Shown: piece after piece, positions 1 through 44,175 of the stretch
Layout: each line of letters starts with the position of its first letter
How positions within the stretch are numbered: position 1 is the first letter of the stretch
Assembly: GCA_027574665.1 (NCBI GenBank)
Contig: CM050658.1
Coordinates: 23,510,317 to 23,574,316, forward strand
Length of the DNA stretch: 64,000 bases
Direction: 5' to 3'
DNA from: Rhynochetos jubatus
Taxonomy: Eukaryota; Chordata; Aves; Eurypygiformes; Rhynochetidae
Notes under the pieces: model-generated
Told to the model about the DNA's origin: nothing
What the model saw: only the letters and a program-made list of their open reading frames with translations
The model's database searches: none
Translations under genes and position numbers: made by a program

Positions 1-702
1 GCTGCTTCAGCCGGGTTAATGGGGGCAGAGTGGGTGGATGCGGCAGGGGGTTCCTATCGTCGTGGGCCTCGAGGCTGCTGGCCTGCCGCTGCCCTGGCGG
101 CTCTAATGGTGCCACTGTTGGGGGGGATGCAGCGGGCGGTTCCTATCGTCCTGGGCCTACAGGCCACTGAGCGGCTTCTGCTGTGACGGCTGCAATGGCG
201 GCTTTGCTAGGGGGTCCGGTACATGGTTCCTGCTGTCCTGGGCCTGGAGGCCACTGAACGGCTTCTGCTGTGGTGGCGGCAATGGCGCCGGGGTTCTTGG
301 TTCAGGTTCCTCCTCTGGCCTCAGGTTGACTGTTTGCTTCAGCCAGGCAGCAGGGAATGGGCTGGGGGGATGCAGTGGGCGGTTCATATTGTCCTGGGCC
401 TCGAGGCCGCCGGCCTGGTTCCGGCGCAGCAGAGAGGCCAGGGACGGGCTGCGGGGGTGCGGGGGCTGTGTGGAGCCCGGGCGTGCTGGTTTTCCTGGCT
501 GCTGTGACCGCTCCTGGCTTTGGGTCCAGCTCTCGGGCGTGATAGGACGGCCTATCCAGTCGTCTGGGCGCGAGGCGTAGCCGCTGGTGTCCGGCCGGGC
601 AGCTGAAGCTGCCGAGTGGTGCCTGTGGAGAGAGGAGGCTGGTGAGGCCCTCAGCCGCAGACGGGACACAGGGACTGTCCTGCACAGCCCGGCCCAGAGC
701 TT
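1..702 (-). pseudogene. Orphan cytoplasmic-tail exon, 3' fragment of the array gene
   Basis: The segment matches 14805-15506, which is also an orphan. On the minus strand the tail acceptor (CTCTCTCCACAG) lies just above 622, and the frame entered in phase 2 stays open from 622 to a stop at 157. It contains HHSAASAARPDTSGY, PITPESWTQSQERSQ and then proline-rich blocks. No transmembrane exon precedes it: at about 702 the homology breaks into unrelated spacer. This copy lacks the extra T seen in the 15.3-kb and 49.15-kb orphans, so its frame is longer than theirs. It is probably a recombination leftover, though it could serve as an alternative last exon for a phase-2 donor. Confidence 0.55.
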
Positions 703-2929: not shown

Positions 2930-5900
2930 TTACTTCGGCTTCAACAGGATAGCCAGGGTCAGGCTGGGGAGGGGCAGGAGGCCCCTATTTCTCCTGGATC
3001 TGGAAGCCGCTGGTCTGGTTTTGCCACAGCAGCGCAGCCAGAAACGCGGGGGCTGAGAACGGGGGGCTCTGGGGAGGCCGGGCGCGCCGGTTAAAGCATC
3101 TGACTGCAGCAGAAGCCTCAGCAGAGATTTCTGGCCAACGACAACACACCACTGCACAGCAGCCTGACTAGAAACCCCTCACGGATAAGAGCAGCAATCG
3201 AAGGAGGCGTTGGCGAACATCACCGTCCTGGCCTTGCATCTTCCTCCACCGCCGAATCACGACACAGCATAAGATTATCCCAAGTGGCACACAAATCACA
3301 ATTGCTACTGTGGCTATCATGCAGTGCCATCTCACGTCTTTAGGACAGAAGAGACCTCCGGTGCTCTGCGGATTGTCAGCGCTTCTGGGCCCCTCGTTGT
3401 CCGCATCTGGAGGAGCAGTTGGGGACGTTGCAGCACGTTTGATATGGCCAGGAAGTTCTCCCTTTCCCCCCAGGGCTAGTGCCTGGAGGCACGCTCCCAC
3501 CCTCTGGGACAGGTTCTCTCACTGAACAAACCTCAGAAGGCCAGAAGGAGAGAGCCCGGGGGGGGAGCTCAGGTGCTTGAGCACTCGCTCGCTCGAGGGA
3601 CGCAGACCAATCCCATCCCCGCAGCAGGCAGTGCAACCCCCCAACTCTCCCTGCCCCTGGGCCAGCTCCCACACCCTGAGGGGATGGAGTCCGGCTTTGT
3701 CCAGAGACGCTTGAGCCTTGCTCTCCCCTTCTGCCTTTTCTCCAGCACAGGCACCGCTTGCCAGTGCTCCCAGGCTCTGGGATGTGTTCCCCACTTAGGC
3801 ACCCGCGCAAGACTGCTCAATACCTGAGGCGACTCGAAAGAATTCATATACTTTGCCGTGGTGGTCTTTTCTGGGCTTCAGCAGCACTGCCAAAAAGCAG
3901 AGACAACAGATAAAGCCTCAGCAGGGCCCAGGCACAGAGGACGCAAGATCCCAAAGGGTGACACCGGCTGGACACGGGACAGCGATTACCTGACGTGCCG
4001 GTGGCTGCCATCGCCACTGTTTCTTCAGCAGAGGCTGGCAGTGAGCCGGCGCTGCCTTCCACAAACAGCTCCTTCTGCACACCCTCTCGGTCCGTCTCTT
4101 GAGAAAGCAAGCGGGACATTTGGGTCAGAGGGATGCGTTCCCCATCAGGGAGACGGCATCGACTGGAGGCAGTACTCCTCAAAGGCACTGACAAGGTTTA
4201 GACAAAACGCCTGGGCTGTTGGGGCTGCACCGAGTCACTCGTGCAAGTAGCAGCCACGCCTGGCCTGCTGGGAGTGCAGGAGATTGCACACCACCCTCTG
4301 GCCTGCACTGCACCTGCTGTGTTTTGGCCAGCTGCAAGGTGGCCTGCCTCCAGAGAGGATGGGAAGAAGCTGCAGCCAGGCCAGCTGGGGAAACAGCCCT
4401 GCTGGGAAGGGCTCCTCCACAAGGCCCTCTCGCCCTTCCCTGTAAGCACCAGCAATGGCCGCATTCGGCCCATCCCAGCTACCGGTCTGCAGATGGGAAA
4501 TGGAGCACAACCCAGAAAGCCTGCCCAATCACCATCTCCACCCGACTTCCAGCTCTAGGGAAGGGCAGCCGGTGTTGCTTGGGACCTCACTCCCACCTGG
4601 AACCAGCCCAGCGGGCAAGCAGTGCTGCCCGTGAGCTGAACTCGGCACACACCAGGCCCTCAAATCTGCCTGCCGACGTCTGCACACACCAGCTCTGAGC
4701 CGGACTGGTCAGACTGGGGCAGCAGCTGCCCCCGGCACTCGGCTCGACCCACAGCTTGCAGCAGAGGCCCTGCACCACCTCTGTGGCTCCCCAGCACCAG
4801 CGGGGCGTGAAACCCAGCATGGCTGCAGCCAGGCCCTGACCCATCCCTTCCAGCAGTGCAGGCAACAGCCTGCTCAGACATGGATGTAAAACCTCTGGTT
4901 GCCGAGTCTCGCGGCTAAGGCAGAGTGAAATCTACTCACCGAGTCTTTTCTGCAGTTCCTTCAGCACTTCCCTTAGGACCTCAGATGGCTTCGGGGATGT
5001 TTTTCCTCCTTCAGCTTGGTACTTTGCTCTGGGAGGTCCTTAAGAGACATTACTCTGTTCAGTTTCACATGAGCAAATGACAGAAAACCCGTGCTTAGCC
5101 TGCTGGTCAGCAGAGACAGACTACTCACCCCCGCGACGCCAGCCGGGCTCTAGTGCCGCATCGGCCCGAGGAGCTGGAACAGTCCTGCCCACGGACGCAT
5201 CTGGAACTAAACACGCAGAGAAGTTTCCGTCATCTCCTGCGACCTCCATCGGCAGAACTGGATCGCAGAAGCGGAAAGGGGAGGGCACACATGCACAGGT
5301 CTCCATGCTCACAGCTGCAGAGGCGCCCTGCTGGCTGAGCCTGGGGCTTTGAGCTGGCAGCTCTCAGAGGGAGGAAAGAGCCGTGACGTACCCAGGTGCT
5401 CTCCCGGAGGCTCAGCCCTGGAACCCAGCTGGGAAGCTGCATCACCTTCATCTCCAGGCATGGCTGCAAAGAAGCACAGGACACAACAGCTCCTGTCACA
5501 CAGTTGAAGGCACTCCTCCCGATGGGAGTGGCAGGGAGTGCAATTCAAAGATCCACTCGGCGGCACTGGCCTCTCCCTTCCCCTCAGAGCACCGTGCAGT
5601 GACCGCGTGGTGCCTGCAGTGAGTGGCGCTGTGTTGGGACAAAAGGAACCCAGCCTGCCCAATCACCATCTCCACCTGACTTCCAGCCCTAGGGAAGGGC
5701 AGCCGGTGTTGCTTGGGACCTCACTCCCACCTGGAACCAGCCCAGTGGGCAAGCAGTGCTGCCCGTGAGCTGAACTCGGCACACACCAGGCCCTCAAATC
5801 TGCCTGCCGACATCTGCACACACCAACTCTGAGCCGGACTGGTCAGACTGGGGCAGCAGCTGCCCCTGGCACTCGGCTCGACCCACAGCTGACCTATCCC

Positions 5901-8900
5901 TTCCAGCAGTGCAGGCAACAGCCTGCTCAGACATGGATGTAAAACCTCTGGTTGCCGAGTCTCGCGGCTAAGGCAGAGTGAAATCTACTCACCGAGTCTT
6001 TTCTGCAGTTCCTTCAGCATTTCCCGTAGGACCTCAGATGGCTTCGGGGATGTTTTTCCTCCTTCAGCTTGGTACTTTGCTCTGGGAGGTCCTTAAGAGA
6101 CATTACTCGGTTCAGTTTCACATGAGCAAATGACAGAAAACCCGTGCTTAGCCTGCTGGTCAGCAGAGACAGACTACTCACCCCCGCGACGCCAGCCGGG
6201 CTCTAGTGCCGCATCGGCCCGAGGAGCTGGAACAGTCCTGCCCACGGACACATCTGGAACTAAACACGCAGAGAAGTTTCCGTCATCTCCTGCGACCTCC
6301 ATCGGCAGAACTGGATCGCAGAAGCGGAAAGGGGAGGGCACACATGCACAGGTCTCCATGCTCACAGCTGCAGAGGCGCCCGGCTGGCTGAGCCTGGGGC
6401 TTTGAGCTGGCAGCTCTCAGAGGGAGGAAAGAGCCGTGACGTACCCAGGTGCTCTCGCGGAGGCTCAGCCCTGGAACCCAGCTGGGAAGCTGCATCACCT
6501 TCATCTCCAGGCATGGCTGCAAAGAAGCACAGGACACAACAGCTCCCGTCACACAGTTGAAGGCACTCCTCCCGATGGGAGTGGCAGGGAGTGCAATTCA
6601 AAGATCCACTCGGCGGCACTGGCCTCTCCCTTCCCCTCAGAGCACCGTACAGTGACCGCGTGGTGCCTGCAGTGAGTGGCACTGTGCTGAGCCAAAAGGA
6701 ACCCAGCCTGCCCAATCACCATCTCCACCTGACTTCCAGCCCTAGGGAAGGGCAGCCGGTGTTGCCTGGGACCTCACTCCCGCCTGGAACCAGCCCAGTG
6801 GGCAAGCAGTGCTGCCCGTGAGCTGAACTCGGCACACGCCAGGCCCTCAAATCTGCCTGCCGACGTCTGCACACACCAGCTCTGAGCCGGACTGGTCAGA
6901 CTGGGGCAGTAGCTGCCCCTGGCACTCGGCTCGACCCACAGCTGACCCATCCCTTCCAGCAGTGCAGGCAACAGCCTACTCAGACATGGATGTAAAACCT
7001 CTGGTTGCCGAGTCTCGCGGCTAAGGCAGAGTGAAATCTACTCACCGAGTCTTTTCTGCAGTTCCTTCAGCATTTCCCGTAGGACCTCAGATGGCTTCGG
7101 GGATGTTTTTCCTCCTTCAGCTTGGTACTTTGCTCTGGGAGGTCCTTAAGAGACATTACTCGGTTCAGTTTCACATGAGCAAATGACAGAAAACCCGTGC
7201 TTAGCCTGCTGGTCAGCAGAGACAGACTACTCACCCCCGCGACGCCAGCCGGGCTCTAGTGCCGCATCGGCCCGAGGAGCTGGAACAGTCCTGCCCACGG
7301 ACACATCTGGAACTAAACACGCAGAGAAGTTTCCGTCATCTCCTGCGACCTCCATCGGCAGAACTGGATCGCAGAAGCGGAAAGGGGAGGGCACACATGC
7401 ACAGGTCTCCATGCTCACAGCTGCAGAGGCGCCCGGCTGGCTGAGCCTGGGGCTTTGAGCTGGCAGCTCTCAGAGGGAGGAAAGAGCCGTGACGTACCCA
7501 GGTGCTCTCGCGGAGGCTCAGCCCTGGAACCCAGCTGGGAAGCTGCATCACCTTCATCTCCAGGCATGGCTGCAAAGAAGCACAGGACACAACAGCTCCC
7601 GTCACACAGTTGAAGGCACTCCTCCCGATGGGAGTGGCAGGGAGTGCAATTCAAAGATCCACTCGGCGGCACTGGCCTCTCCCTTCCCCTCAGAGCACCG
7701 TACAGTGACCGCGTGGTGCCTGCAGTGAGTGGCACTGTGCTGAGCCAAAAGGAACCCAGCCTGCCCAATCACCATCTCCACCTGACTTCCAGCCCTAGGG
7801 AAGGGCAGCCGGTGTTGCCTGGGACCTCACTCCCGCCTGGAACCAGCCCAGTGGGCAAGCAGTGCTGCCCGTGAGCTGAACTCGGCACACGCCAGGCCCT
7901 CAAATCTGCCTGCCGACGTCTGCACACACCAGCTCTGAGCCGGACTGGTCAGACTGGGGCAGTAGCTGCCCCTGGCACTCGGCTCGACCCACAGCTGACC
8001 CATCCCTTCCAGCAGTGCAGGCAACAGCCTACTCAGACATGGATGTAAAACCTCTGGTTGCCGAGTCTCGCGGCTAAGGCAGAGTGAAATCTACTCACCG
8101 AGTCTTTTCTGCAGTTCCTTCAGCACTTCCCTTAGGACCTCAGAAGGATTCAGGGATGTTTTTCCTCCTTCAGCTTGGTACTTTGCTCTGGGAGGTCCTT
8201 AAGAGACATTACTCGGTTCAGTTTCACATGAGCAAATGACAGAAAACCCGTGCTTAGCCTGCTGGTCAGCAGAGACAGACTACTCACCCCCGCGACGCCA
8301 GCCGGGCTCTAGTGCCGCATCGGCCCGAGGAGCTGGAACAGTCCTGCCCACGGACGCATCTGGAACTAAACACGCAGAGAAGTTTCCGTCATCTCCTGCG
8401 ACCTCCATCGGCAGAACTGGATCGCAGAAGCGGAAAGGGGAGGGCACACATGCACAGGTCTCCATGCTCACAGCTGCAGAGGCGCCCTGCTGGCTGAGCC
8501 TGGGGCTTTGAGCTGGCAGCTCTCAGAGGGAGGAAAGAGCCGTGACGTACCCAGGTGCTCTCGCGGAGGCTCAGCCCTGGAACCCAGCTGGGAAGCTGCA
8601 TCACCTTCATCTCCAGGCATGGCTGCAAAGAAGCACAGGACACAACAGCTCCCGTCACACAGTTGAAGGCACTCCTCCCGATGGGAGTGGCAGGGAGTGC
8701 AATTCAAAGATCCACTCGGCGGCACTGGCCTCTCCCTTCCCCTCAGAGCACCGTACAGTGACCGCGTGGTGCCTGCAGTGAGTGGCGCTGTGTTGGGACA
8801 AAAGGAACCCAGCCTGCCCAATCACCATCTCCACCTGACTTCCAGCCCTAGGGAAGGGCAGCCGGTGTTGCTTGGGACCTCACTCCCACCTGGAACCAGC

Positions 8901-10431
8901 CCAGTGGGCAAGCAGTGCTGCCCGTGAGCTGAACTCGGCACACACCAGGCCCTCAAATCTGCCTGCCGACATCTGCACACACCAACTCTGAGCCGGACTG
9001 GTCAGACTGGGGCAGCAGCTGCCCCTGGCACTCGGCTCGACCCACAGCTGACCTATCCCTTCCAGCAGTGCAGGCAACAGCCTGCTCAGACATGGATGTA
9101 AAACCTCTGGTTGCCGAGTCTCGCGGCTAAGGCAGAGTGAAATCTACTCACCGAGTCTTTTCTGCAGTTCCTTCAGCATTTCCCGTAGGACCTCAGATGG
9201 CTTCGGGGATGTTTTTCCTCCTTCAGCTTGGTACTTTGCTCTGGGAGGTCCTTAAGAGACATTACTCGGTTCAGTTTCACATGAGCAAATGACAGAAAAC
9301 CCGTGCTTAGCCTGCTGGTCAGCAGAGACAGACTACTCACCCCCGCGACGCCAGCCGGGCTCTAGTGCCGCATCGGCCCGAGGAGCTGGAACAGTCCTGC
9401 CCACGGACACATCTGGAACTAAACACGCAGAGAAGTTTCCGTCATCTCCTGCGACCTCCATCGGCAGAACTGGATCGCAGAAGCGGAAAGGGGAGGGCAC
9501 ACATGCACAGGTCTCCATGCTCACAGCTGCAGAGGCGCCCGGCTGGCTGAGCCTGGGGCTTTGAGCTGGCAGCTCTCAGAGGGAGGAAAGAGCCGTGACG
9601 TACCCAGGTGCTCTCGCGGAGGCTCAGCCCTGGAACCCAGCTGGGAAGCTGCATCACCTTCATCTCCAGGCATGGCTGCAAAGAAGCACAGGACACAACA
9701 GCTCCCGTCACACAGTTGAAGGCACTCCTCCCGATGGGAGTGGCAGGGAGTGCAATTCAAAGATCCACTCGGCGGCACTGGCCTCTCCCTTCCCCTCAGA
9801 GCACCGTACAGTGACCGCGTGGTGCCTGCAGTGAGTGGCGCTGTGCTGAGCCAAAAGGAATCCAGAGAAAGGACTCCCTGGAGCTCACACCAACTCTAAC
9901 CTCACCCCCAGCACCCCTGATGTCTCAGCAGCCGGCACCCGCCGGGAGCAGCTCAGGCTCTCGGGGACCAGCACAGACAGCTTTGCAAGGCAAAGCGCCC
10001 CGGGGCACATCACTACACCCAGCCTCTTGTCTCTCTGCTCTTCTCCATCTCTGTGGCTCCAAACCAAGATCCAGCTGAGAAGCTGCATAAGCACTGCCAC
10101 CACCCTCATCTAGAAGCAAGCACAGATGCAAACCGTTTCCATCCCATGTTGGGATGCACTTAGTGACCTGTGGGCACTGGAAGGGGGTCACGTAACAAGC
10201 TGGGAGCCAGGCATAGGTGGAGATTGCCAAAGCTGCAGAGGGGCCTGGTGACCTCGTGCCTGGCAAAACCCACCATCCTCGCTTCTCTGGGAGAAGAACC
10301 CTCTGGCCTGTGAAAGGCTGCATCAGCGCAGCCCACGTACCTGCGGCCTGTGCTTGCCACGGGGCAGCCCAGGCAGCCTGGACATGCAGGGCCACAAGAA
10401 GGAGGAAGAGGAGGTAGCAGGCAGAGGCCAT
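2930..10431 (-). CDS. Array gene 1: membrane protein with a five-fold exon 2-3-4 cassette
   Basis: Proposed exons: 10341-10431; cassette 1: 9604-9675, 9341-9418, 9152-9250; cassette 2: 8551-8622, 8288-8365, 8099-8197; cassette 3: 7498-7569, 7235-7312, 7046-7144; cassette 4: 6445-6516, 6182-6259, 5993-6091; cassette 5: 5392-5463, 5129-5206, 4940-5038; then 3990-4187, 3824-3886, 3224-3406, 2930-3099. The total is 1950 nt, or 649 residues. Residues 1-23 look like a signal peptide (MASACYLLFLLLVALHVQ). Residues 31-445 are five 83-residue repeats, each ending in a helix like PSEVLREMLKELQKRL. The transmembrane helix is about 561-583. Exon 7 has a weak donor (G|GTGATG) and the last exon is read out of frame with the proline-rich tails of other copies, so the C-terminus is uncertain; read-through would stop at 3168. 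The start has a good Kozak context (GGAGCCATGG). Family unknown. Confidence 0.62.
4520..9858 (-). repeat. 1053-bp tandem exon-cassette array inside gene 1
   Basis: Five consecutive copies of the exon 4 / exon 3 / exon 2 block with their introns. Exon 4 recurs at 4940, 5993, 7046, 8099 and 9152, an exact 1053-bp step. The leftmost copy has 81 bp more in the intron below exon 4 (about 4760-4840), so its unit is 1134 bp. Each later unit begins with intron-4 sequence (CCTGCCCAATCACC) joined directly to intron-1 sequence (CAAAAGGAACCCAG). This is the junction expected from unequal exchange between intron 1 and intron 4. The 6.1-kb and 7.2-kb units look identical. Confidence 0.9.
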
Positions 10432-10453: not shown

Positions 10454-10477
10454 CTGCTGCTGCTGCTGCTGCTGCTG
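10454..10477. repeat. (CTG)8 tract, gene 1
   Basis: Eight perfect CTG units on the plus strand, CAG on the gene strand. They begin 23 nt above the start codon, so they are probably in the 5' UTR. Confidence 0.95.
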
Positions 10478-10536
10478 CAGTCGGGGCCAGGGGCTGAGCG
10501 GTCAGTGCTTATGGCCAGCGTGGTGCCTCAGGGCTC

Positions 10537-13887: not shown

Positions 13888-14410
13888 CTGTGGAGAGAGG
13901 AGGCTGCTGAGGCCCTCAGCCACAGACGGGACACAGGGACTGTCCTGCACAGCCCGGCCCAGAGCTGGCAAGGCTCACTGGCACGGGCTGAGCTGCTGGC
14001 ACACCCTGACCAATGTGGACACCTGCACCTCGTGGCAGCATTGGGCAGGGGAATTCCTGCGGACAGGTTCACCGCTCAGGAGCGGGCGCTGGCACGCCTC
14101 TCACTTTCTAGGGCAATCTTGTGCCCTGCTCTTCCTCTTCCTGACCTTGCTTTGCCTACGCCTGTCGCTCCTGGGGGCTGCTCTTGTCCGGACATGGTCA
14201 GGTTGAGCCAACCCTGGCTCCAGTCAGAGCGGGCCCCCAGGAAAGAGGCCCCCGAGCCAAGAGGCCAATTAGAGCATCTGACAGCAGCAGAAGCCTCAGC
14301 AGAGTTCTCTGGCCAACCACCGATGACGCGCCACCGCACAGCAGCCTGACTAGAAATGCTTCCTGGCTACGAGCAGCCATCAAAGGGGGCAGTGAGGGAG
14401 GATCAATGAC

Positions 14411-17733: not shown

Positions 17734-20700
17734 TTACTTCTGCTTCAACAGGATAGCCAGGGTCAGGCTGGGGAGGGGCAGGAGGCCCCTATTTCTCCTG
17801 GATCTGGAAGCCGCTGGTCTGGTTTTGCCACAGCAGCGCAGCCAGAAACGCGGGGGCTGAGAACGGGGGGCTCTGGGGAGGCCGGGCGCGCCGGTTAAAG
17901 CATCTGACTGCAGCAGAAGCCTCAGCAGAGATTTCTGGCCAACGACAACACGCCACTGCACAGCAGCCTGACTAGAAACCCCTCACGGATAAGAGCAGCG
18001 ATCGAAGGAGGCGTTGGCGAACATCACCGTCCTGGCCTTGCATCTTCCTCCACCGCCGAATCACGACACAGCATAAGATTATCCCAAGTGGCACACAAAT
18101 CACAATTGCTACTGTGGCTATCATGCAGTGCCATCTCACGTCTTTAGGACAGAAGAGACCTCCGGTGCTCTGCGGATTGTCAGCGCTTCTGGGCCCCTCG
18201 TTGTCCGCATCTGGAGGAGCAGTTGGGAACGTTGCAGCACGTTTGATACGGCCAGGCAGTTCTCCCTTTCCCCCCAGGGCTAGTGCCTGGAGGCACGCTC
18301 CCACCCTCTGGGACAGGTTCTCTCACTGAACAAACCTCAGAAGGCCAGAAGGAGAGAGCCCGGGGGGGGGAGCGCAGGTGCTTGAGCACTCGCTCGCTCG
18401 AGGGACGCAGACCAATCCCATCCCCGCAGCAGGCAGTGCAACCCCCCAACTCTCCCTGCCCCTGAGCCAGCTCCCACACCCTGAGAGGATGGAGTCCAGC
18501 CTTGTCCAGAGACGCTTGAGCCTTGCTCTCCCCTTCTGCCTTTTCTCCAGCACAGGCACCGCTTGCCAGTGCTCCCAGGCTCTGGGATGTGTCCCCCACT
18601 TAGGCACCCGCGCAAGACTGCTCAGTACCTGAGGCGACTTGAAAGAATTCATATACTTTGCCGTGGTGGTCTTTTCTGGGCTTCAGCAGCACTGCCAAAA
18701 AGCAGAGACAACAGGTAAAGCCTCAGCAGGGCCCAGGCCAGAGGATGCAAGATCCCAAAGGGTGACACCGGCTGGACACGGGACAGCGATTACCTGACGT
18801 GCCGGTGGCTGCCATCGCCGCTGTTTCTTCAGCAGAGGCTGGGAGTGAGCCGGCGCTGCCGTCCGCAAACAGCTCCTTCTGCACACCCTCTCGGTCCGTC
18901 TCTTGAGAAAGCAAGCGGGACATTTGGGTCAGAGGGATGCGTTCCCCATCAGGGAGACGGCATCGACTGGAGGCAGTACTCCTCAAAGGCACTGACAAGG
19001 TTTAGACAAAACGCCTGGGCTGTTGGGGCTGCACCGAGTCACTCGTGCAAGTAGCAGCCACGCCTGGCCTGCTGGGAGTGCAGGAGATTGCACACCACCC
19101 TCTGGCCTGCACTGCACCTGCTGTGTTTTGGCCAGCTGCAAGGTGGCCTGCCTCCAGAGAGGACGGGAAGAAGCTGCAACCAGGCCAGCTGGGGAAACAG
19201 CCCTGCTGAGAAGGGCTCCTCCACAAGGCCCTCTCGCCCTTCCCTGTAAGCACCAGCAATGGCCGCATTCGGCCCATCCCAGCTACCGGTCTGCAGATGG
19301 GAAATGGAGCATAACCCAGAAAGCCTGCCCAATCACCATCTCCACCTGACTTCCAGCCCTAGGGAAGGGCAGCCGGTGTTGCTTGGGACCTCACTCCCAC
19401 CTGGAACCAGCCCAGTGGGCAAGCAGTGCTGCCCGTGAGCTGAACTCGGCACACACCAGGCCCTCAAATCTGCCTGCCGACATCTGCACACGCCAGCTCT
19501 GAGCCGGACTGGTCAGACTGGGGCAGCAGCTGCCCCTGGCACTCGGCTCGACCCACAGCTGACCTATCCCTTCCAGCAGTGCAGGCAACAGCCTGCTCAG
19601 ACATGGATGTAAAACCTCTGGTTGCCGAGTCTCGCGGCTAAGGCAGAGTGAAATCTACTCACCGAGTCTTTTCTGCAGTTCCTTCAGCATTTCCCTTAGG
19701 ACCTCAGATGGCTTCGGGGATGTTTTTCCTCCTTCAGCTTGGTACTTTGCTCTGGGAGGTCCTTAAGAGACATTACTCGGTTCAGTTTCACATGACAGAA
19801 ACCCCGTGCTTAGCCTGCTGGTCAGCAGAGACAGACTACTCACCCCCGCGACGCCAGCCGGGCTCTAGTGCCGCATCGGCCCGAGGAGCTGGAACAGTCC
19901 TGCCCACGGACGCATCTGGAACTAAACACGCAGAGAAGTTTCCGTCATCTCCTGCGACCTCCATCGGCAGAACTGGATCGCAGAAGCGGAAAGGGGAGGG
20001 CACACATGCACAGGTCTCCATGCTCACAGCTGCAGAGGCGCCCTGCTGGCTGAGCCTGGGGCTTTGAGCTGGCAGCTCTCAGAGGGAGGAAAGAGCCGTG
20101 ACGTACCCAGGTGCTCTCCCGGAGGCTCAGCCCTGGAACCCAGCTGGGAAGCTGCATCACCTTCATCTCCAGGCATGGCTGCAAAGAAGCACAGGACACA
20201 ACAGCTCCCGTCACACAGTTGAAGGCACTCCTCCCGATGGGAGTGGCAGGGAGTGCAATTCAAAGATCCACTCGGCGGCACTGGCCTCTCCCTTCCCCTC
20301 AGAGCACCGTACAGTGACCGCGTGGTGCCTGCAGTGAGTGGCGCTGTGCTGAGCCAAAAGGAATCCAGAGAAAGGACTCCCTGGAGCTCACACCAACTCT
20401 AACCTCACCCCCAGCACCCCTGATGTCTCAGCAGCCGGCACCCGCCGGGAGCAGCTCAGGCTCTCGGGGACCAGCACAGACAGCTTTGCAAGGCAAAGCG
20501 CCCCGGGGCACATCACTACACCCAGCCTCTTGTCTCTCTGCTCTTCTCCATCTCTGTGGCTCCAAACCAAGATCCAGCTGAGAAGCTGCATAAGCACTGC
20601 CACCACCCTCATCTAGAAGCAAGCACAGATGCAAACCGTTTCCATCCCATGTTGGGATGCACTTAGTGACCTGTGGGCACTGGAAGGGGGTCACGTAACA

Positions 20701-24707: not shown

Positions 24708-27700
24708 TCAAAATGGGGGTAATGGGGGCGGGGTGGGGGGACGCGGCAGGCGGTTCCTGTTGTCTTGTGGCTGGAGGCCACTGAGCTGTTTCTGCTGCTG
24801 CGGGAGTAATGGGGGTGGGGTGGGGGGACAGGGCAGGTGGTCCAGTTCCTCCTCCAGCCTGAGGCTGATTGTTTGCTTCTCCTTCAGCAGAGCAGCAGGG
24901 GATGGGCTGGGGGGGCGAGGGGGACGGTCTGCTTTCTCTTGTGTCTGGAAGCCGCTGGCCTGGTTCCGACGGAGCAGAGCAGCCGGGGACGGGCTCGGGG
25001 GGCGCGGGGGCTGTGGGGAGGCCGGGCGTGCTGGTTTTCCTGGCTGCTGTGACCGCTCCTGGCTTTGGGTCCAGCTCTCAGGTGTTATGGGGCAGCTTAT
25101 CCAGTCATCCGGCCGCGAGGCATAGCCGCTGGTGTCCGGCCGGTTGTTGAAGCTGCCGAGTGGTGCCTGTGGAGAGAGGGAGCTGCTGAGGCCCTCAGCT
25201 GCAGACTGGACACAGGGACTGTCCTGCACAGCCTGGCCCAGAGCTGGCAAGGCTCACCGGCACGGGCTGAGCTGCTGGCACACCCTGACCGATGTGGACA
25301 CCTGCACCTCATGGCAGCATTGGGCAGGGGAATTCCTGCGGACAGGTTCACCGCTCAGGAGCGGGCGCTGGCACGCCTCTCACTTTCTAGGGCAATCTTG
25401 TGCCCTGCTCTTCCTCTTCCTGACCTTGCTTTGCCTACGCCTGTCGCTCCTGGGGGCTGCTCTTGCCCGGGCACGGTCAGGTTGAGCCAACCCTGGCTCC
25501 AGTCAGAGCGGGCCCCCAGGAAGGAGGCCCCTGAGCCAAGAGGCCAATTAGAGCATCTGACAGCAGCAGAAGCCTCAGCGGAGTTCTCTGGCCAACCACC
25601 GATGACGCGCCACCGCACAGCAGCCTGACTAGAAATGCTTCCTGGCTATGAGCAGCCATCGAAGGGGGCAGTGGGGGAAAATCAACGACTCACTCTCCTC
25701 TCTTGCTCTGCCACCGGATCACGACACAGCAGAAGATTATCCCAAGTGGTACACAAATCACGATTGCTACTGTGGCTATCATGCAGCGCCTTCGCTCGTC
25801 TTGGGGACAGAAGAGACCTCCGGTGCTCTGCGGATTGTCAGCGCTTCTGGGCCCCTCGTTGTCCGCATCTGGAGGAGCAGTTGGGAATGTTGCAGCACGT
25901 TTGATACGGCCAGGCAGTTCTCCCTTTCCCCCCAGGGCTGGTGCCTGGAGGCACGCTCCCACCCTCTGGGACAGGTTCTCTCACTGAACAAACCTCAGAA
26001 GGCCAGAAGGAGAGAGCCCGGGGGGGGAGCGCAGCTGCTTGAGCACTCGCTCGCTCGAGGGACGCAGACCAATCCCATCCCCGCAGCAGGCAGTGCAACC
26101 CCCCAACTCTCCCTCCCCCCGGGCCAGCTCCCACACCCTGAGGGGATGGAGTCCGGCCTTGTCCAGAGACGCTTGAGCCTTGCTCTCCCCTTCTGCCTTT
26201 TCTCCAGCACAGGCACCGCTTGCCAGTGCTCCCAGGCTCTGGGATGTGTCCCCCACTTAGGCACCCGCGCAAGACTGCTCAGTACCTGAGGCGACTTGAA
26301 AGAATTCATATACTTTGCCGTGGTGGTCTTTTCTGGGCTTCAGCAGCACTGCCAAAAAGCAGAGACAACAGGTAAAGCCTCAGCAGGGCCCAGGCACAGA
26401 GGATGCAAGATCCCAAAGGGTGACACCGGCTGGACACGGGACAGCGATTACCTGACATGCCGGTGGCTGCCATCGCCGCTGTTTCTTCAGCAGAGGCTGG
26501 CAGTGAGCCGGCGCTGCCTTCCGCAAACAGCTCCTTCTGCACACCCTCTCGGTCCGTCTCTTGAGAAAGTAAGCGGGACATTTGGGTCAGAGGGATGCGT
26601 TCCCCATCAGGGAGACGGCATCGACTGGAGGCAGTACTCCTCAAAGGCACTGACAAGGTTTAGACAAAACGCCTGGGCTGTTGGGGCTGCACCGAGTCAC
26701 TCGTGCAAGTAGCAGCCACGCCTGGCCTGCTGGGAGTGCAGGAGATTGCACGCCACCCTCTGGCCTGCACTGCACCTGCTGTGTTTTGGCCAGCTGCAAG
26801 GTGGCCTGCCTCCAGAGAGGACGGGAAGAAGCTGCAGCCAGGCCAGCTGGGGAAACAGCCCTGCTGGGAAGGGCTCCTCCACAAGGCCCTCTCGCCCTTC
26901 CCTGTAAGCACCAGCAATGGCCGCATTCGGCCCATCCCAGCTACCGGTCTGCAGATGGGAAATGGAGCACAACCCAGAAAGCCTGCCCAACCACCATCTC
27001 CACCTGACTTCCAGCTCTAGGGAAGGGCAGCCGGTGTTGCTTGGGACCTCACTCCCACCTGGAACCAGCCCAGTGGGCAAGCAGTGCTGCCCGTGAGCTG
27101 AACTCGGCACACGCCAGGCCCTCAAATCTGCCTGCCGACGTCTGCACACACCAGCTCTGAGCCGGACTGGTCAGACTGGGGCAGCAGCTGCCCCCGGCAC
27201 TCGGCTCGACCCACAGATTGCAGCAGAGGCCCTGCACCACCTCTGTGGCTCCCCAGCACCAGCGGGGCGTGAAACCCAGCATGGCTGCAGCCAGGCCCTG
27301 ACCCATCCCTTCCAGCAGTGCAGGCAACAGCCTGCTCAGACATGGATGTAAAACCTCTGGTTGCCGAGTCTCGCGGCTAAGGCAGAGTGAAATCTCCTCA
27401 CCGAGTCTTTTCTGCAGTTCCTTCAGCACTTCCCTTAGGACCTCAGATGGCTTCGGGGATGTTTTTCCTCCTTCAGCTTGGTACTTTGCTCTGGGAGGTC
27501 CTTAAGAGACATTACTCGGTTCAGTTTCACATGACAGAAACCCCGTGCTTAGCCTGCTGGTCAGCAGAGACAGACTACTCACCCCCGCGACGCCAGCCGG
27601 GCTCTAGTGCCGCATCGGCCCGAGGAGCTGGAACAGTCCTGCCCACGGACGCATCTGGAACTAAACACGCAGAGAAGTTTCCATCATCTCCTGCGACCTC

Positions 27701-28673
27701 CATCGGCAGAACTGGATCGCAGAAGCGGAAAGGGGAGGGCACACATGCACAGGTCTCCATGCTCACAGCTGCAGAGGCGCCCGGCTGGCTGAGCCTGGGG
27801 CTTTGAGCTGGCAGCTCTCAGAGGGAGGAAAGAGCCGTGACGTACCCAGGTGCTCTCGCGGAGGCTCAGCCCTGGAACCCAGCTGGGAAGCTGCATCACC
27901 TTCATCTCCAGGCATGGCTGCAAAGAAGCACAGGACACAACAGCTCCCGTCACACAGTTGAAGGCACTCCTCCCGATGGGAGTGGCAGGGAGTGCAATTC
28001 AAAGATCCACTCGGCGGCACTGGCCTCTCCCTTCCCCTCAGAGCACCGTACAGTGACCGCGTGGTGCCTGCAGTGAGTGGCGCTGTGCTGAGCCAAAAGG
28101 AATCCAGAGAAAGGACTCCCTGGAGCTCACACCAACTCTAACCTCACCCCCAGCACCCCTGATGTCTCAGCAGCCGGCACCCGCCGGGAGCAGCTCAGGC
28201 TCTCGGGGACCAGCACAGACAGCTTTGCAAGGCAAAGCGCCCCGGGGCACATCACTACACCCAGCCTCTTGTCTCTCTGCTCTTCTCCATCTCTGTGGCT
28301 CCAAACCAAGATCCAGCTGAGAAGCTGCATAAGCACTGCCACCACCCTCATCTAGAAGCAAGCACAGATGCAAACCGTTTCCATCCCATGTTGGGATGCA
28401 CTTAGTGACCTGTGGGCACTGGAAGGGGGTCACGTAACAAGCTGGGAGCCAGGCATAGGTGGAGATTGCCAAAGCTGCAGAGGGGCCTGGTGACCTCGTG
28501 CCTGGCAAAACCCACCATCCTCGCTTCTCTGGGAGAAGAACCCTCTGGCCTGTGAAAGGCTGCACCGGCGCAGCCCACGTACCTGCTCCCTGTGCTTGCC
28601 ACGGGGCAGCCCAGGCAGCCTGGACGTGCAGGGCCACAAGAAGGAGGAAGAGGAGGTAGCAGGCAGAGGCCAT
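24708..28673 (-). CDS. Array gene 3: type I membrane protein, frameshifted tail
   Basis: Proposed exons: 28583-28673, 27846-27917, 27583-27660, 27402-27500, 26452-26649, 26286-26348, 25694-25868, then the tail. Exon 7 ends GA|GTGAGT in phase 2. With the usual tail acceptor (just above 25166) a one-base deletion near 25143-25152 (CTTCAACAACCGG instead of CTTCAGCTGCCCGG) ends the protein at 25097, giving 281 residues. A second AG 14 nt further (exon 24708-25152) would restore the long proline-rich frame, which is otherwise fully open to 24708. The signal peptide, cassette helix and transmembrane helix are as in gene 6. The exon 4 donor is GTGAGG. Function unknown; membrane receptor or adhesion role is inference only. 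Confidence 0.65.
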
Positions 28674-32470: not shown

Positions 32471-35400
32471 TCAAAATGGGGGTAATGGGGGCGGGGTGGG
32501 GGGACGCGGCAGGCGGTTCCTGTTGTCTTGTGGCTGGAGGCCACTGAGCTGTTTCTGCTGCTGCGGGAGTAATGGGGGTGGGGTGGGGGGACAGGGCAGG
32601 TGGTCCAGTTCCTCCTCCAGCCTGAGGCTGATTGTTTGCTTCTCCTTCAGCAGAGCAGCAGGGGATGGGCTGGGGGGGCGAGGGGGACGGTCTGCTTTCT
32701 CTTGTGTCTGGAAGCCGCTGGCCTGGTTCCGACGGAGCAGAGCAGCCGGGGACGGGCTCGGGGGGCGCGGGGGCTGTGGGGAGGCCGGGCGTGCTGGTTT
32801 TCCTGGCTGCTGTGACCGCTCCTGGCTTTGGGTCCAGCTCTCAGGTGTTATGGGGCAGCTTATCCAGTCATCCGGCCGCGAGGCATAGCCGCTGGTGTCC
32901 GGCCGGTTGTTGAAGCTGCCGAGTGGTGCCTGTGGAGAGAGGGAGCTGCTGAGGCCCTCAGCTGCAGACTGGACACAGGGACTGTCCTGCACAGCCTGGC
33001 CCAGAGCTGGCAAGGCTCACCGGCACGGGCTGAGCTGCTGGCACACCCTGACCGATGTGGACACCTGCACCTCATGGCAGCATTGGGCAGGGGAATTCCT
33101 GCGGACAGGTTCACCGCTCAGGAGCGGGCGCTGGCACGCCTCTCACTTTCTAGGGCAATCTTGTGCCCTGCTCTTCCTCTTCCTGACCTTGCTTTGCCTA
33201 CGCCTGTCGCTCCTGGGGGCTGCTCTTGCCCGGGCACGGTCAGGTTGAGCCAACCCTGGCTCCAGTCAGAGCGGGCCCCCAGGAAGGAGGCCCCTGAGCC
33301 AAGAGGCCAATTAGAGCATCTGACAGCAGCAGAAGCCTCAGCGGAGTTCTCTGGCCAACCACCGATGACGCGCCACCGCACAGCAGCCTGACTAGAAATG
33401 CTTCCTGGCTATGAGCAGCCATCGAAGGGGGCAGTGGGGGAAAATCAACGACTCACTCTCCTCTCTTGCTCTGCCACCGGATCACGACACAGCAGAAGAT
33501 TATCCCAAGTGGTACACAAATCACGATTGCTACTGTGGCTATCATGCAGCGCCTTCGCTCGTCTTGGGGACAGAAGAGACCTCCGGTGCTCTGCGGATTG
33601 TCAGCGCTTCTGGGCCCCTCGTTGTCCGCATCTGGAGGAGCAGTTGGGAATGTTGCAGCACGTTTGATACGGCCAGGCAGTTCTCCCTTTCCCCCCAGGG
33701 CTGGTGCCTGGAGGCACGCTCCCACCCTCTGGGACAGGTTCTCTCACTGAACAAACCTCAGAAGGCCAGAAGGAGAGAGCCCGGGGGGGGAGCGCAGCTG
33801 CTTGAGCACTCGCTCGCTCGAGGGACGCAGACCAATCCCATCCCCGCAGCAGGCAGTGCAACCCCCCAACTCTCCCTGCCCCCGGGCCAGCTCCCACACC
33901 CTGAGGGGATGGAGTCCGGCCTTGTCCAGAGACGCTTGAGCCTTGCTCTCCCCTTCTGCCTTTTCTCCAGCACAGGCACCGCTTGCCAGTGCTCCCAGGC
34001 TCTGGGATGTGTCCCCCACTTAGGCACCCGCGCAAGACTGCTCAGTACCTGAGGCGACTTGAAAGAATTCATATACTTTGCCGTGGTGGTCTTTTCTGGG
34101 CTTCAGCAGCACTGCCAAAAAGCAGAGACAACAGGTAAAGCCTCAGCAGGGCCCAGGCACAGAGGATGCAAGATCCCAAAGGGTGACACCGGCTGGACAC
34201 GGGACAGCGATTACCTGACATGCCGGTGGCTGCCATCGCCGCTGTTTCTTCAGCAGAGGCTGGCAGTGAGCCGGCGCTGCCTTCCGCAAACAGCTCCTTC
34301 TGCACACCCTCTCGGTCCGTCTCTTGAGAAAGTAAGCGGGACATTTGGGTCAGAGGGATGCGTTCCCCATCAGGGAGACGGCATCGACTGGAGGCAGTAC
34401 TCCTCAAAGGCACTGACAAGGTTTAGACAAAACGCCTGGGCTGTTGGGGCTGCACCGAGTCACTCGTGCAAGTAGCAGCCACGCCTGGCCTGCTGGGAGT
34501 GCAGGAGATTGCACGCCACCCTCTGGCCTGCACTGCACCTGCTGTGTTTTGGCCAGCTGCAAGGTGGCCTGCCTCCAGAGAGGACGGGAAGAAGCTGCAG
34601 CCAGGCCAGCTGGGGAAACAGCCCTGCTGGGAAGGGCTCCTCCACAAGGCCCTCTCGCCCTTCCCTGTAAGCACCAGCAATGGCCGCATTCGGCCCATCC
34701 CAGCTACCGGTCTGCAGATGGGAAATGGAGCACAACCCAGAAAGCCTGCCCAACCACCATCTCCACCCGACTTCCAGCTCTAGGGAAGGGCAGCCGGTGT
34801 TGCTTGGGACCTCACTCCCGCCTGGAACCAGCCCAGCGGGCAAGCAGTGCTGCCCGTGAGCTGAACTCGGCACACGCCAGGCCCTCAAATCTGCCTGCCG
34901 ACGTCTGCACACACCAGCTCTGAGCCGGACTGGTCAGACTGGGGCAGCAGCTGCCCCCGGCACTCGGCTCGACCCACAGCTTGCAGCAGAGGCCCTGCAC
35001 CACCTCTGTGGCTCCCCAGCACCAGCGGGGCGTGAAACCCAGCATGGCTGCAGCCAGGCCCTGACCCATCCCTTCCAGCAGTGCAGGCAACAGCCTGCTC
35101 AGACATGGATGTAAAACCTCTGGTTGCCGAGTCTCGCGGCTAAGGCAGAGTGAAATCTACTCACCGAGTCTTTTCTGCAGTTCCTTCAGCATTTCCCTTA
35201 GGACCTCAGATGGCTTCGGGGATGTTTTTCCTCCTTCAGCTTGGTACTTTGCTCTGGGAGGTCCTTAAGAGACATTACTCGGTTCAGTTTCACATGACAG
35301 AAACCCCGTGCTTAGCCTGCTGGTCAGCAGAGACAGACTACTCACCCCCGCGACGCCAGCCGGGCTCTAGTGCCGCATCGGCCCGAGGAGCTGGAACAGT

Positions 35401-36436
35401 CCTGCCCACGGACACATCTGGAACTAAACACGCAGAGAAGTTTCCGTCATCTCCTGCGACCTCCATCGGCAGAACTGGATCGCAGAAGCGGAAAGGGGAG
35501 GGCACACATGCATGGGTCTCCATGCTCACAGCTGCAGAGGCGCCCGGCTGGCTGAGCCTGGGGCTTTGAGCTGGCAGCTCTCAGAGGGAGGAAAGAGCCG
35601 TGACGTACCCAGGTGCTCTCGCGGAGGCTCAGCCCTGGAACCCAGCTGGGAAGCTGCATCACCTTCATCTCCAGGCATGGCTGCAAAGAAGCACAGGACA
35701 CAACAGCTCCCGTCACACAGTTGAAGGCACTCCTCCCGATGGGAGTGGCAGGGAGTGCAATTCAAAGATCCACTCGGCGGCACTGGCCTCTCCCTTCCCC
35801 TCAGAGCACCGTACAGTGACCGCGTGGTGCCTGCAGTGAGTGGCGCTGTGCTGAGCCAAAAGGAATCCAGAGAAAGGACTCCCTGGAGCTCACACCAACT
35901 CTAACCTCACCCCCAGCACCCCTGATGTCTCAGCAGCCGGCACCCGCCGGGAGCAGCTCAGGCTCTCGGGGACCAGCACAGACAGCTTTGCAAGGCAAAG
36001 CGCCCCGGGGCACATCACTACACCCAGCCTCTTGTCTCTCTGCTCTTCTCCATCTCTGTGGCTCCAAACCAAGATCCAGCTGAGAAGCTGCATAAGCACT
36101 GCCACCACCCTCATCTAGAAGCAAGCACAGATGCAAACCGTTTCCATCCCATGTTGGGATGCACTTAGTGACCTGCGGGCACTGGAAGGGGGTCACGTAA
36201 CAAGCTGGGAGCCAGGCATAGGTGGAGATTGCCAAAGCTGCAGAGGGGCCTGGTGACCTCGTGCCTGGCAAAACCCACCATCCTCGCTTCTCTGGGAGAA
36301 GAACCCTCTGGCCTGTGAAAGGCTGCATCGGCGCAGCCCACGTACCTGCTCCCTGTGCTTGCCACGGGGCAGCCCAGGCAGCCTGGACATGCAGGGCCAC
36401 AAGAAGGAGGAAGAGGAGGTAGCAGGCAGAGGCCAT
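32471..36436 (-). CDS. Array gene 4: type I membrane protein, frameshifted tail
   Basis: Proposed exons: 36346-36436, 35609-35680, 35346-35423, 35165-35263, 34215-34412, 34049-34111, 33457-33631, and a tail of 32860-32929 (usual acceptor, frameshifted, 281 residues in all) or 32471-32915 (alternative acceptor, long tail). Sequence and frameshift match gene 3 closely. The exon 4 donor is the standard GTGAGT. The signal peptide, the phase-1 ectodomain exons and the single helix in exon 7 are intact. The start is fixed by the CCATGG context and by the signal peptide that follows. Family not recognised. Confidence 0.65.
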
Positions 36437-40209: not shown

Positions 40210-43200
40210 TCAAAATGGGGGTAATGGGGGCGGGGTGGGGGGACGCGGCAGGCGGTTCCTGTTGTCTTGTGGCTGGAGGCCACTGAGCTGTTTCTGCTGC
40301 TGCGGGAGTAATGGGGGTGGGGTGGGGGGACAGGGCAGGTGGTCCAGTTCCTCCTCCAGCCTGAGGCTGATTGTTTGCTTCTCCTTCAGCAGAGCAGCAG
40401 GGGATGGGCTGGGGGGGCGAGGGGGACGGTCTGCTTTCTCTTGTGTCTGGAAGCCGCTGGCCTGGTTCCGACGGAGCAGAGCAGCCGGGGACGGGCTCGG
40501 GGGGCGCGGGGGCTGTGGGGAGGCCGGGCGTGCTGGTTTTCCTGGCTGCTGTGACCGCTCCTGGCTTTGGGTCCAGCTCTCAGGTGTTATGGGGCAGCTT
40601 ATCCAGTCATCCGGCCGCGAGGCATAGCCGCTGGTGTCCGGCCGGTTGTTGAAGCTGCCGAGTGGTGCCTGTGGAGAGAGGGAGCTGCTGAGGCCCTCAG
40701 CTGCAGACTGGACACAGGGACTGTCCTGCACAGCCTGGCCCAGAGCTGGCAAGGCTCACCGGCACGGGCTGAGCTGCTGGCACACCCTGACCGATGTGGA
40801 CACCTGCACCTCATGGCAGCATTGGGCAGGGGAATTCCTGCGGACAGGTTCACCGCTCAGGAGCGGGCGCTGGCACGCCTCTCACTTTCTAGGGCAATCT
40901 TGTGCCCTGCTCTTCCTCTTCCTGACCTTGCTTTGCCTACGCCTGTCGCTCCTGGGGGCTGCTCTTGCCCGGGCACGGTCAGGTTGAGCCAACCCTGGCT
41001 CCAGTCAGAGCGGGCCCCCAGGAAGGAGGCCCCTGAGCCAAGAGGCCAATTAGAGCATCTGACAGCAGCAGAAGCCTCAGCGGAGTTCTCTGGCCAACCA
41101 CCGATGACGCGCCACCGCACAGCAGCCTGACTAGAAATGCTTCCTGGCTATGAGCAGCCATCGAAGGGGGCAGTGGGGGAAAATCAACGACTCACTCTCC
41201 TCTCTTGCTCTGCCACCGGATCACGACACAGCAGAAGATTATCCCAAGTGGTACACAAATCACGATTGCTACTGTGGCTATCATGCAGCGCCTTCGCTCG
41301 TCTTGGGGACAGAAGAGACCTCCGGTGCTCTGCGGATTGTCAGCGCTTCTGGGCCCCTCGTTGTCCGCATCTGGAGGAGCAGTTGGGAATGTTGCAGCAC
41401 GTTTGATACGGCCAGGCAGTTCTCCCTTTCCCCCCAGGGCTGGTGCCTGGAGGCACGCTCCCACCCTCTGGGACAGGTTCTCTCACTGAACAAACCTCAG
41501 AAGGCCAGAAGGAGAGAGCCCGGGGGGGGAGCGCAGCTGCTTGAGCACTCGCTCGCTCGAGGGACGCAGACCAATCCCATCCCCGCAGCAGGCAGTGCAA
41601 CCCCCCAACTCTCCCTGCCCCCGGGCCAGCTCCCACACCCTGAGGGGATGGAGTCCGGCCTTGTCCAGAGACGCTTGAGCCTTGCTCTCCCCTTCTGCCT
41701 TTTCTCCAGCACAGGCACCGCTTGCCAGTGCTCCCAGGCTCTGGGATGTGTCCCCCACTTAGGCACCCGCGCAAGACTGCTCAGTACCTGAGGCGACTTG
41801 AAAGAATTCATATACTTTGCCGTGGTGGTCTTTTCTGGGCTTCAGCAGCACTGCCAAAAAGCAGAGACAACAGGTAAAGCCTCAGCAGGGCCCAGGCACA
41901 GAGGATGCAAGATCCCAAAGGGTGACACCGGCTGGACACGGGACAGCGATTACCTGACATGCCGGTGGCTGCCATCGCCGCTGTTTCTTCAGCAGAGGTT
42001 GGCAGTGAGCCGGCGCTGCCTTCCGCAAACAGCTCCTTCTGCACACCCTCTCGGTCCGTCTCTTGAGAAAGCAAGCGGGACATTTGGGTCAGAGGGATGC
42101 GTTCCCCATCAGGGAGACGGCATCGACTGGAGGCAGTACTCCTCAAAGGCACTGACAAGGTTTAGACAAAACGCCTGGGCTGTTGGGGCTGCACCGAGTC
42201 ACTCGTGCAAGTAGCAGCCACGCCTGGCCTGCTGGCAGTGCAGGAGATTGCACGCCACCCTCTGGCCTGCACTGCACCTGCTGTGTTTTGGCCAGCTGCA
42301 AGGTGGCCTGCCTCCAGAGAGGACGGGAAGAAGCTGCAGCCAGGCCAGCTGGGGAAACAGCCCTGCTGGGAAGGGCTCCTCCACAAGGCCCTCTCGCCCT
42401 TCCCTGTAAGCACCAGCAATGGCCGCATTCGGCCCATCCCAGCTACCGGTCTGCAGATGGGAAATGGAGCACAACCCAGAAAGCCTGCCCAACCACCATC
42501 TCCACCCGACTTCCAGCTCTAGGGAAGGGCAGCCGGTGTTGCTTGGGACCTCACTCCCGCCTGGAACCAGCCCAGCGGGCAAGCAGTGCTGCCCGTGAGC
42601 TGAACTCGGCACACGCCAGGCCCTCAAATCTGCCTGCCGACGTCTGCACACACCAGCTCTGAGCCGGACTGGTCAGACTGGGGCAGCAGCTGCCCCCGGC
42701 ACTCGGCTCGACCCACAGCTTGCAGCAGAGGCCCTGCACCACCTCTGTGGCTCCCCAGCACCAGCGGGGCGTGAAACCCAGCATGGCTGCAGCCAGGCCC
42801 TGACCCATCCCTTCCAGCAGTGCAGGCAACAGCCTGCTCAGACATGGATGTAAAACCTCTGGTTGCCGAGTCTCGCGGCTAAGGCAGAGTGAAATCTACT
42901 CACCGAGTCTTTTCTGCAGTTCCTTCAGCATTTCCCTTAGGACCTCAGATGGCTTCGGGGATGTTTTTCCTCCTTCAGCTTGGTACTTTGCTCTGGGAGG
43001 TCCTTAAGAGACATTACTCGGTTCAGTTTCACATGACAGAAACCCCGTGCTTAGCCTGCTGGTCAGCAGAGACAGACTACTCACCCCCGCGACGCCAGCC
43101 GGGCTCTAGTGCCGCATCGGCCCGAGGAGCTGGAACAGTCCTGCCCACGGACACATCTGGAACTAAACACGCAGAGAAGTTTCCGTCATCTCCTGCGACC

Positions 43201-44175
43201 TCCATCGGCAGAACTGGATCGCAGAAGCGGAAAGGGGAGGGCACACATGCACAGGTCTCCATGCTCACAGCTGCAGAGGCGCCCGGCTGGCTGAGCCTGG
43301 GGCTTTGAGCTGGCAGCTCTCAGAGGGAGGAAAGAGCCGTGACGTACCCAGGTGCTCTCGCGGAGGCTCAGCCCTGGAACCCAGCTGGGAAGCTGCATCA
43401 CCTTCATCTCCAGGCATGGCTGCAAAGAAGCACAGGACACAACAGCTCCCGTCACACAGTTGAAGGCACTCCTCCCGATGGGAGTGGCAGGGAGTGCAAT
43501 TCAAAGATCCACTCGGCGGCACTGGCCTCTCCCTTCCCCTCAGAGCACCGTACAGTGACCGCGTGGTGCCTGCAGTGAGTGGCGCTGTGCTGAGCCAAAA
43601 GGAATCCAGAGAAAGGACTCCCTGGAGCTCACACCAACTCTAACCTCACCCCCAGCACCCCTGATGTCTCAGCAGCCGGCACCCGCCGGGAGCAGCTCAG
43701 GCTCTCGGGGACCAGCACAGACAGCTTTGCAAGGCAAAGCGCCCCGGGGCACATCACTACACCCAGCCTCTTGTCTCTCTGCTCTTCTCCATCTCTGTGG
43801 CTCCAAACCAAGATCCAGCTGAGAAGCTGCATAAGCACTGCCACCACCCTCATCTAGAAGCAAGCACAGATGCAAACCGTTTCCATCCCATGTTGGGATG
43901 CACTTAGTGACCTGTGGGCACTGGAAGGGGGTCACGTAACAAGCTGGGAGCCAGGCATAGGTGGAGATTGCCAAAGCTGCAGAGGGGCCTGGTGACCTCG
44001 TGCCTGGCAAAACCCACCATCCTCGCTTCTCTGGGAGAAGAACCCTCTGGCCTGTGAAAGGCTGCACCGGCGCAGCCCACGTACCTGCTCCCTGTGCTTG
44101 CCACGGGGCAGCCCAGGCAGCCTGGACGTGCAGGGCCACAAGAAGGAGGAAGAGGAGGTAGCAGGCAGAGGCCAT
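40210..44175 (-). CDS. Array gene 5: type I membrane protein, frameshifted tail
   Basis: Proposed exons: 44085-44175, 43348-43419, 43085-43162, 42904-43002, 41954-42151, 41788-41850, 41196-41370, and a tail of 40599-40668 (281 residues in all) or 40210-40654 with the alternative acceptor. It shares the tail frameshift with genes 3 and 4. Exon 3 carries VPDVSVGR where gene 3 has VPDASVGR. Its upstream neighbour on the gene strand is not gene 6 directly: an orphan block and spacer (46966-50473) intervene. Frame and splice sites are intact through exon 7. Confidence 0.65.

Follow-up and report, generated by a model that had tools for sequence, protein, structure and literature searches.

A five-fold in-frame repeat of three exons in a predicted membrane-protein gene of Rhynochetos jubatus

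The window analysed here is a 64,000-nucleotide stretch of the genome of the bird Rhynochetos jubatus (assembly GCA_027574665.1, contig CM050658.1, positions 23,510,317 to 23,574,316), with seven genes of a single family on its minus strand. In the gene that we designate gene 1, exons 2, 3, and 4 form a cassette present in five tandem copies, whereas genes 2-7 have one cassette each. We consider it probable that gene 1 belongs to a bird multigene family of single-pass membrane proteins, and that a 1053-bp block within it was duplicated and raised to five copies, lengthening the ectodomain. The exons and genes described below are models built from sequence and homology.

The successive cassettes of gene 1 are spaced start to start by 1053, 1053, 1053, and 1053 bp, and their exons measure 72, 78, and 99 nucleotides in all five copies. 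An AG acceptor and a GT donor flank each of the 15 cassette exons. Exon 1 contributes 91 coding nucleotides, and each cassette exon therefore begins and finishes in phase 1, as is found at both borders of 15 out of 15. One cassette amounts to 249 nucleotides, or 83 residues, and gene 1 has 415 cassette residues in all; its 19 coding exons, when joined, give an open frame of 601 amino acids up to the stop, as against 269 amino acids in gene 2 and 249 in genes 3-7. The duplicated material thus consists of whole exons of equal border phase and a length divisible by three, which identifies it as a tandem in-frame multi-exon duplication. The repeat continues beyond the outermost cassette exons to approximately position 9865 (self-alignment of 4836-8812 with 5889-9865, 98.7% identity), and the exact 1053-bp register, together with 97-99% identity, rules out a chance repeat.

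A first-pass annotation of the window had proposed the five-fold recurrence at 1053 bp, the phase 1 borders with 83 residues per copy, and a repeated region of 415 residues against 83 in the other six genes. The register is exact at all four spacings, the splice borders and the 601-amino-acid frame agree with the size and phase of the module, and the gene models bear out the difference between gene 1 and its neighbors. The assignment of the cassettes to the extracellular side also stands, in that they lie N-terminal of a single transmembrane helix in a protein with an apparent signal peptide. Coordinates are collected in Table 1.

Table 1. Features of gene 1 and its paralogues in the window (unit types A and B are described in the text)
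Feature	Position	Strand	Basis
Whole repeated stretch, gene 1 (five 1053-bp units and edges)	4518..9865	-	Spacing; self-alignment
Gene 1 exon 1 (apparent signal peptide), 91 nt coding	10341..10431	-	
Cassette a, unit type A	9152..9675 (exons 9604-9675, 9341-9418, 9152-9250)	-	
Cassette b, unit type B	8099..8622 (exons 8551-8622, 8288-8365, 8099-8197)	-	
Cassette c, unit type A	7046..7569 (exons 7498-7569, 7235-7312, 7046-7144)	-	
Cassette d, unit type A	5993..6516 (exons 6445-6516, 6182-6259, 5993-6091)	-	
Cassette e, unit type B	4940..5463 (exons 5392-5463, 5129-5206, 4940-5038)	-	
Junction intron a-b, 529 bp	8623..9151	-	Intron 4/intron 1 join
Junction introns b-c, c-d, d-e, with identical join and offset	7570-8098, 6517-7045, 5464-5992	-	
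81 bp of intron 4, kept in gene 1 last unit	4755..4835	-	Limits counted from alignment
Gene 1 exon 5	3990..4097	-	
Gene 1 exon 6	3824..3870	-	
Gene 1 exon 7 (juxtamembrane Cys motif, transmembrane helix, short tail, stop)	3168..3482	-	
Gene 1 exon 8, open frame homologous to relatives' proline-rich cytoplasmic tail	157..622	-	
Gene 2 single cassette	19663..20178	-	
Gene 3 single cassette	27402..27917	-	
Gene 4 single cassette	35165..35680	-	
Gene 5 single cassette	42904..43419	-	
Gene 6 single cassette	54230..54745	-	
Gene 7 single cassette	61985..62508	-	

The introns between cassettes record how the array arose. All four are 529 bp long and chimeric, in that the 5' portion of intron 4 leads into the 3' portion of intron 1. 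A 16-base join is located at offset 332 in each of them and occurs nowhere else in the window, and the motif CTGG(A/G)TT is found close to the join in both intron 4 and intron 1. Because all four internal junctions are the same intron 4/intron 1 join, the simplest history is a single founding duplication and later unequal exchange. The units differ from one another at 2-13 of 818 bp and fall into two types, arranged A B A A B in the 5' to 3' direction of the gene. Cassettes a, c, and d are identical across a compared core of 434 bp, from which b and e differ; the two B units, b and e, differ at eight of 818 sites. The junction introns also form two types: b-c is identical to c-d, a-b and d-e are two differences apart over 529 sites, and 12-14 differences separate the types. 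Perhaps a later unequal exchange moved an A-B pair. Only the last unit of gene 1 keeps an 81-bp piece of intron 4 that is absent from the internal units and from gene 2; intron 4 is 761 bp long in gene 2 and 842 bp in genes 3-7, so that, judged by length, the latter keep the piece as well.

Gene 1 is a mosaic with respect to its neighbors. Its 5' end is closest to gene 7 (0.30% sequence difference) and then to gene 2 (0.38%), while its exon 7 region is closest to gene 2 (0.86%) and approximately 31% different from genes 3-7; the part from exon 5 to intron 6 is 1.8-2.3% from all paralogues. Over the compared core, a single base separates cassette e from the cassette of gene 2, and likewise cassettes a, c, and d from their counterparts in genes 5 and 6. 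Since the closest paralogue changes along gene 1, the seven neighboring genes have probably exchanged sequence. From these comparisons we infer that the array is about as old as the separation of genes 1 and 2. Among the 11 cassettes of the window, eight of the 249 coding nucleotides are variable (five nonsynonymous and three synonymous changes, over approximately 182 and 67 sites, respectively), as are four of the 185 bp of intron 2; selection, either positive or purifying, is not detectable on these 11 cassettes, the differences being too few.

In the sequence of events that we propose, a 1053-bp block containing three phase 1 exons would have been tandemly duplicated once through the intron 4/intron 1 join, unequal exchange between homologous 1-kb units would have brought the copies to five, and the seven paralogues would have traded sequence. 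As the block adds 249 nucleotides and is phase 1 at both ends, each copy would lengthen a largely disordered extracellular stalk by 83 residues. If all five blocks are spliced into the transcript, the product would be a 601-amino-acid protein with 332 residues beyond the one-cassette version; it would presumably be displayed at the cell surface, where the added modules may affect its reach or valency.

Three protein searches recovered 92 distinct relatives, and all 89 of those with names are bird proteins; two of the searches, including that with the gene 1 protein, scored the 7991 candidates sharing most words with the query. A one-cassette protein of the window matched 24 relatives at E ≤ 10 (best 2.4e-64) and the gene 1 protein 13 (best 1.4e-72). 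The relatives come from eagles, a buzzard, New World vultures, cranes, owls, an ibis, storks, a cormorant, penguins, a shearwater, pigeons, falcons, an auk, a cuckoo-roller, and the zebra finch; no fowl or duck protein is among the matches listed. Most are named uncharacterised, and a few verprolin-like, CD2-like, or zinc finger-like. The window proteins share homology with LOC129211146-like proteins over the exon 2-4 peptide and exon 5, the exon peptides of relatives being 45-58% identical to the window protein over the alignment. The relatives P0030 and P0035 (Morphnus and Buteo; relatives are cited here by P number) represent clusters of 26 and 20 member sequences, a sign that hawks and eagles may have the family in many copies or as numerous isoforms. 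Our literature search found no description of the family, and the LOC names of six relatives were absent from the literature searched, subscription papers lying outside its coverage.

The family layout comprises an apparent signal peptide, a polar ectodomain, a juxtamembrane cysteine pair, and one transmembrane helix; many members also have a proline-rich tail. Gene 1 has the apparent signal peptide and a single transmembrane helix with a CPQDVRRRC-like juxtamembrane motif, both cysteines of which are invariant in 13 alignment rows; it matches the transmembrane profile, and helices are present in the predicted model of a relative. The cassette module itself is cysteine-free. An AlphaFold2 model of a Harpia member (16 rows) has a mean predicted local distance difference test (pLDDT) score of 58.4, with 147 of 312 residues below 50; the transmembrane helix is confident, but most of the ectodomain scores only about 38-48 and is predicted to be mostly disordered. 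One further helix, at residues 102-127 (block means 69, 60, and 47), runs from the end of the exon 4 peptide into exon 5; since four of the five exon 4 copies in gene 1 precede exon 2 rather than exon 5, a helix in each module would be an extrapolation from this model. On balance, the cassette is best regarded as a flexible spacer. Pfam gave no family at cut-off in two window proteins, and none in ten relatives scanned except for TMEM40 (PF15817) in P0013 of Grus japonensis. Membership in TMEM40 was rejected: the two window proteins have no such match, and that in P0013 is located at residues 253-303, outside the shared part, in what is probably a fused gene model. Solved structures provided no credible match (best E 6.4).

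A profile of the exon 3-4 peptide, built from 13 rows, two of them window proteins, was used to count cassettes in the 92 relatives, with at least 40 profile positions required for a full copy. One full copy was found in 71 relatives, none in 16, and two in five; the five copies of gene 1 are therefore the highest count. Exon limits in the relatives were inferred from the window, and some models could join neighboring genes. P0003 (Grus americana, LOC129211146) has two directly joined copies, each with an extra upstream exon, and P0002 has the exon 5 peptide between its copies. The copies in P0025 and P0026 are separated by long unrelated stretches, and these may be fused gene models. P0006 (Strix aluco, LOC141928460) repeats exons 3-6 and has the transmembrane segment, and in P0071 (Taeniopygia, the zebra finch, LOC115491619) a second copy is weak and partial (7.8e-5). 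P0003, P0006, and P0071 resemble the window proteins in signal peptide, exon 2-4 peptide, and exon 5, some of them with internal exon repeats; the bird relatives differ from gene 1 in that other exon sets are repeated and many have extra small upstream exons. The first-pass view of the array as a route to lengthening an extracellular region is supported as a recurrent process, since the gene models of these three relatives repeat in-frame ectodomain exons. As applied to gene 1 it is conditional on the splicing of all five cassettes and on an effect of length, and the earlier interpretation as a whole is partly supported.

The small upstream exons 1b and 1c of the relatives are themselves similar to exon 2 in several species and, to a lesser degree, to exon 3. 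With the real sequences of four proteins (p values uncorrected), 1b resembled 1c in all three proteins that have 1c (p ≤ 0.01), 1b resembled exon 2 in three of four (p ≤ 0.01), 1b resembled exon 3 in three of four (p 0.03-0.05), and exon 2 resembled exon 3 in two of four (p < 0.02); in the zebra finch the test detected no resemblance. These similarities are no more than suggestive of earlier growth of the ectodomain by exon duplication. At least a remnant of the upstream exons survives in the window genes, and in intron 1 of gene 1 a remnant of a relatives' exon (DEGGGSAYAASQLDLGLEP) is located at 10054-10110 on the minus strand, by eye apparently without a usable donor.

At the other end of the protein, a homologue of tail exon 8, recognized by homology and splice motifs, lies downstream of all seven genes. 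In genes 6 and 7, exon 7 ends in a GTGAGT donor and exon 8 is open; in genes 3-5 the donor is likewise present, but exon 8 is frameshifted; genes 1 and 2 have lost the usual donor, and exon 8 is frameshifted in gene 2 and open in gene 1. Because its donor is lost, the five-cassette gene probably has no proline-rich cytoplasmic tail, even though the tail frame is open. Such a tail is not general in the family, as four of 11 aligned relatives (P0004, P0009, P0017, and P0022) stop just past the transmembrane segment. Orphan copies of exon 7, approximately 83% identical to that of gene 1, are found at 14350-14609 and 48204-48463; each has lost 4 bp at the donor and is followed by a copy of the tail exon, and another tail-exon copy begins at 49280. 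To judge from their sequence, these are remnants of other family members. Upstream of the coding regions, a pure CAG run ends 22 nucleotides before the start codon of each gene (10454-10478 in gene 1); its length varies among the paralogues, with 8, 8, 16, 8, 16, 13, and 18 units in genes 1-7.

A rival explanation of the array is an assembly artefact in which two haplotypes, each having a smaller number of cassettes (A B and A A B, for instance), were run together. The unit order does divide into two plausible shorter arrays, and the identity of cassettes a, c, and d over the core, along with the matching of junction intron b-c with c-d and the near match of a-b with d-e, fits such a concatenation. 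The two B units are nevertheless distinct from each other, and the 81-bp piece follows e only. Moreover, the window contains no Ns, and the seven paralogues are separated although long aligned stretches are 95-99.6% alike, which suggests accurate reads long enough to span the 5.3 kb; the Grus model with two cassettes also argues against an artefact, an explanation that we regard as quite unlikely. Even less credible is that the cassettes are a repeated peptide precursor cleaved at basic pairs, RR in exon 3 and KR at the end of exon 4. WRRG and QKRL are indeed present in five of five gene 1 cassettes, and among 11 aligned relatives RR is common in exon 3 and the end of exon 4 has a basic pair in three (ERRH once and KRAH twice). 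The other eight have ERGH or ERAH at that position, however, and the protein has a conserved transmembrane helix, leaving this proposal hardly tenable.

It is also possible, although unlikely, that the genomic repeat is silent, either because gene 1 is decaying or because the extra cassettes are skipped, so that protein length is unchanged. The loss of the usual exon 7 donor in genes 1 and 2 and the frameshifted tail exon in genes 2-5 are consistent with decay, the similarity of coding and intronic change speaks for silence as well, and skipping symmetrical exons would leave the frame unharmed; the intact 601-codon frame and the 15 intact pairs of cassette splice sites speak against silence, if weakly, given that the copies are very young. 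Several observations likewise weigh against a lengthened gene 1 product. Gene 1 may be a decaying copy, given that its usual donor for the tail exon is gone. Coding change in the cassettes is similar to the intron rate, giving no sign that selection keeps the extra copies. Two proteins labelled isoforms of one Theristicus gene, P0015 and P0011, differ in exon 3, P0015 being without exons 2 and 3; models of relatives thus omit symmetrical exons in frame, which makes cassette skipping plausible. The two-cassette model P0003 has no transmembrane segment and could fuse two neighboring genes, and five cassettes are found in none of the 92 relatives by the profile count. Finally, both the transcript and the protein are predictions from the sequence.

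Judged by analogy, the mechanism in gene 1 is that of known coding repeats, kringle IV type 2 (KIV-2) of LPA and the SRCR domains of DMBT1. Kringles are folded disulfide domains of a secreted protein, whereas the gene 1 unit, with three exons in 1.05 kb, encodes a cysteine-free and, by prediction, mostly disordered module of a membrane protein. In human LPA, KIV-2 units are 5.6 kb long with two short exons each and number from one to about 40 (PMC11462820). The likeness to gene 1 lies in an in-frame multi-exon genomic unit within one gene, in near-alike units of which types A and B are distinguished, and, in LPA, in the existence of one-unit alleles; unit number in LPA varies between individuals, whereas gene 1 is known here from one assembly. 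Human DMBT1 has alleles with seven to 21 SRCR domains, whose number influences bacterial binding (PMC9038570); here too the number of tandem in-frame modules alters an extracellular protein. DMBT1 differs from gene 1 in its cysteine-rich SRCR domain, in being a secreted glycoprotein, and in having known ligands. What would be new in gene 1 is a fresh case, in a family for which no description was found, of a module predicted to be mostly unstructured rather than folded. A bolder proposal is that a bird-specific family with fast turnover tunes ectodomain length by cassette number and gains or loses a proline-rich signalling tail, gene 1 acting as a long-stalked, tail-less decoy or spacer against one-cassette tailed paralogues, with a cassette number polymorphic as in LPA; in this full form it is very doubtful.

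Gene 1 would provide a clean and young example of protein lengthening through tandem duplication of symmetrical exons, with one-cassette paralogues in the same array for comparison and other in-frame exon repeats in the gene models of other birds. It draws attention to an undescribed family of bird genes whose module number and tail presence appear quick to change, and to a locus at which coding copy number could be scored between individuals.

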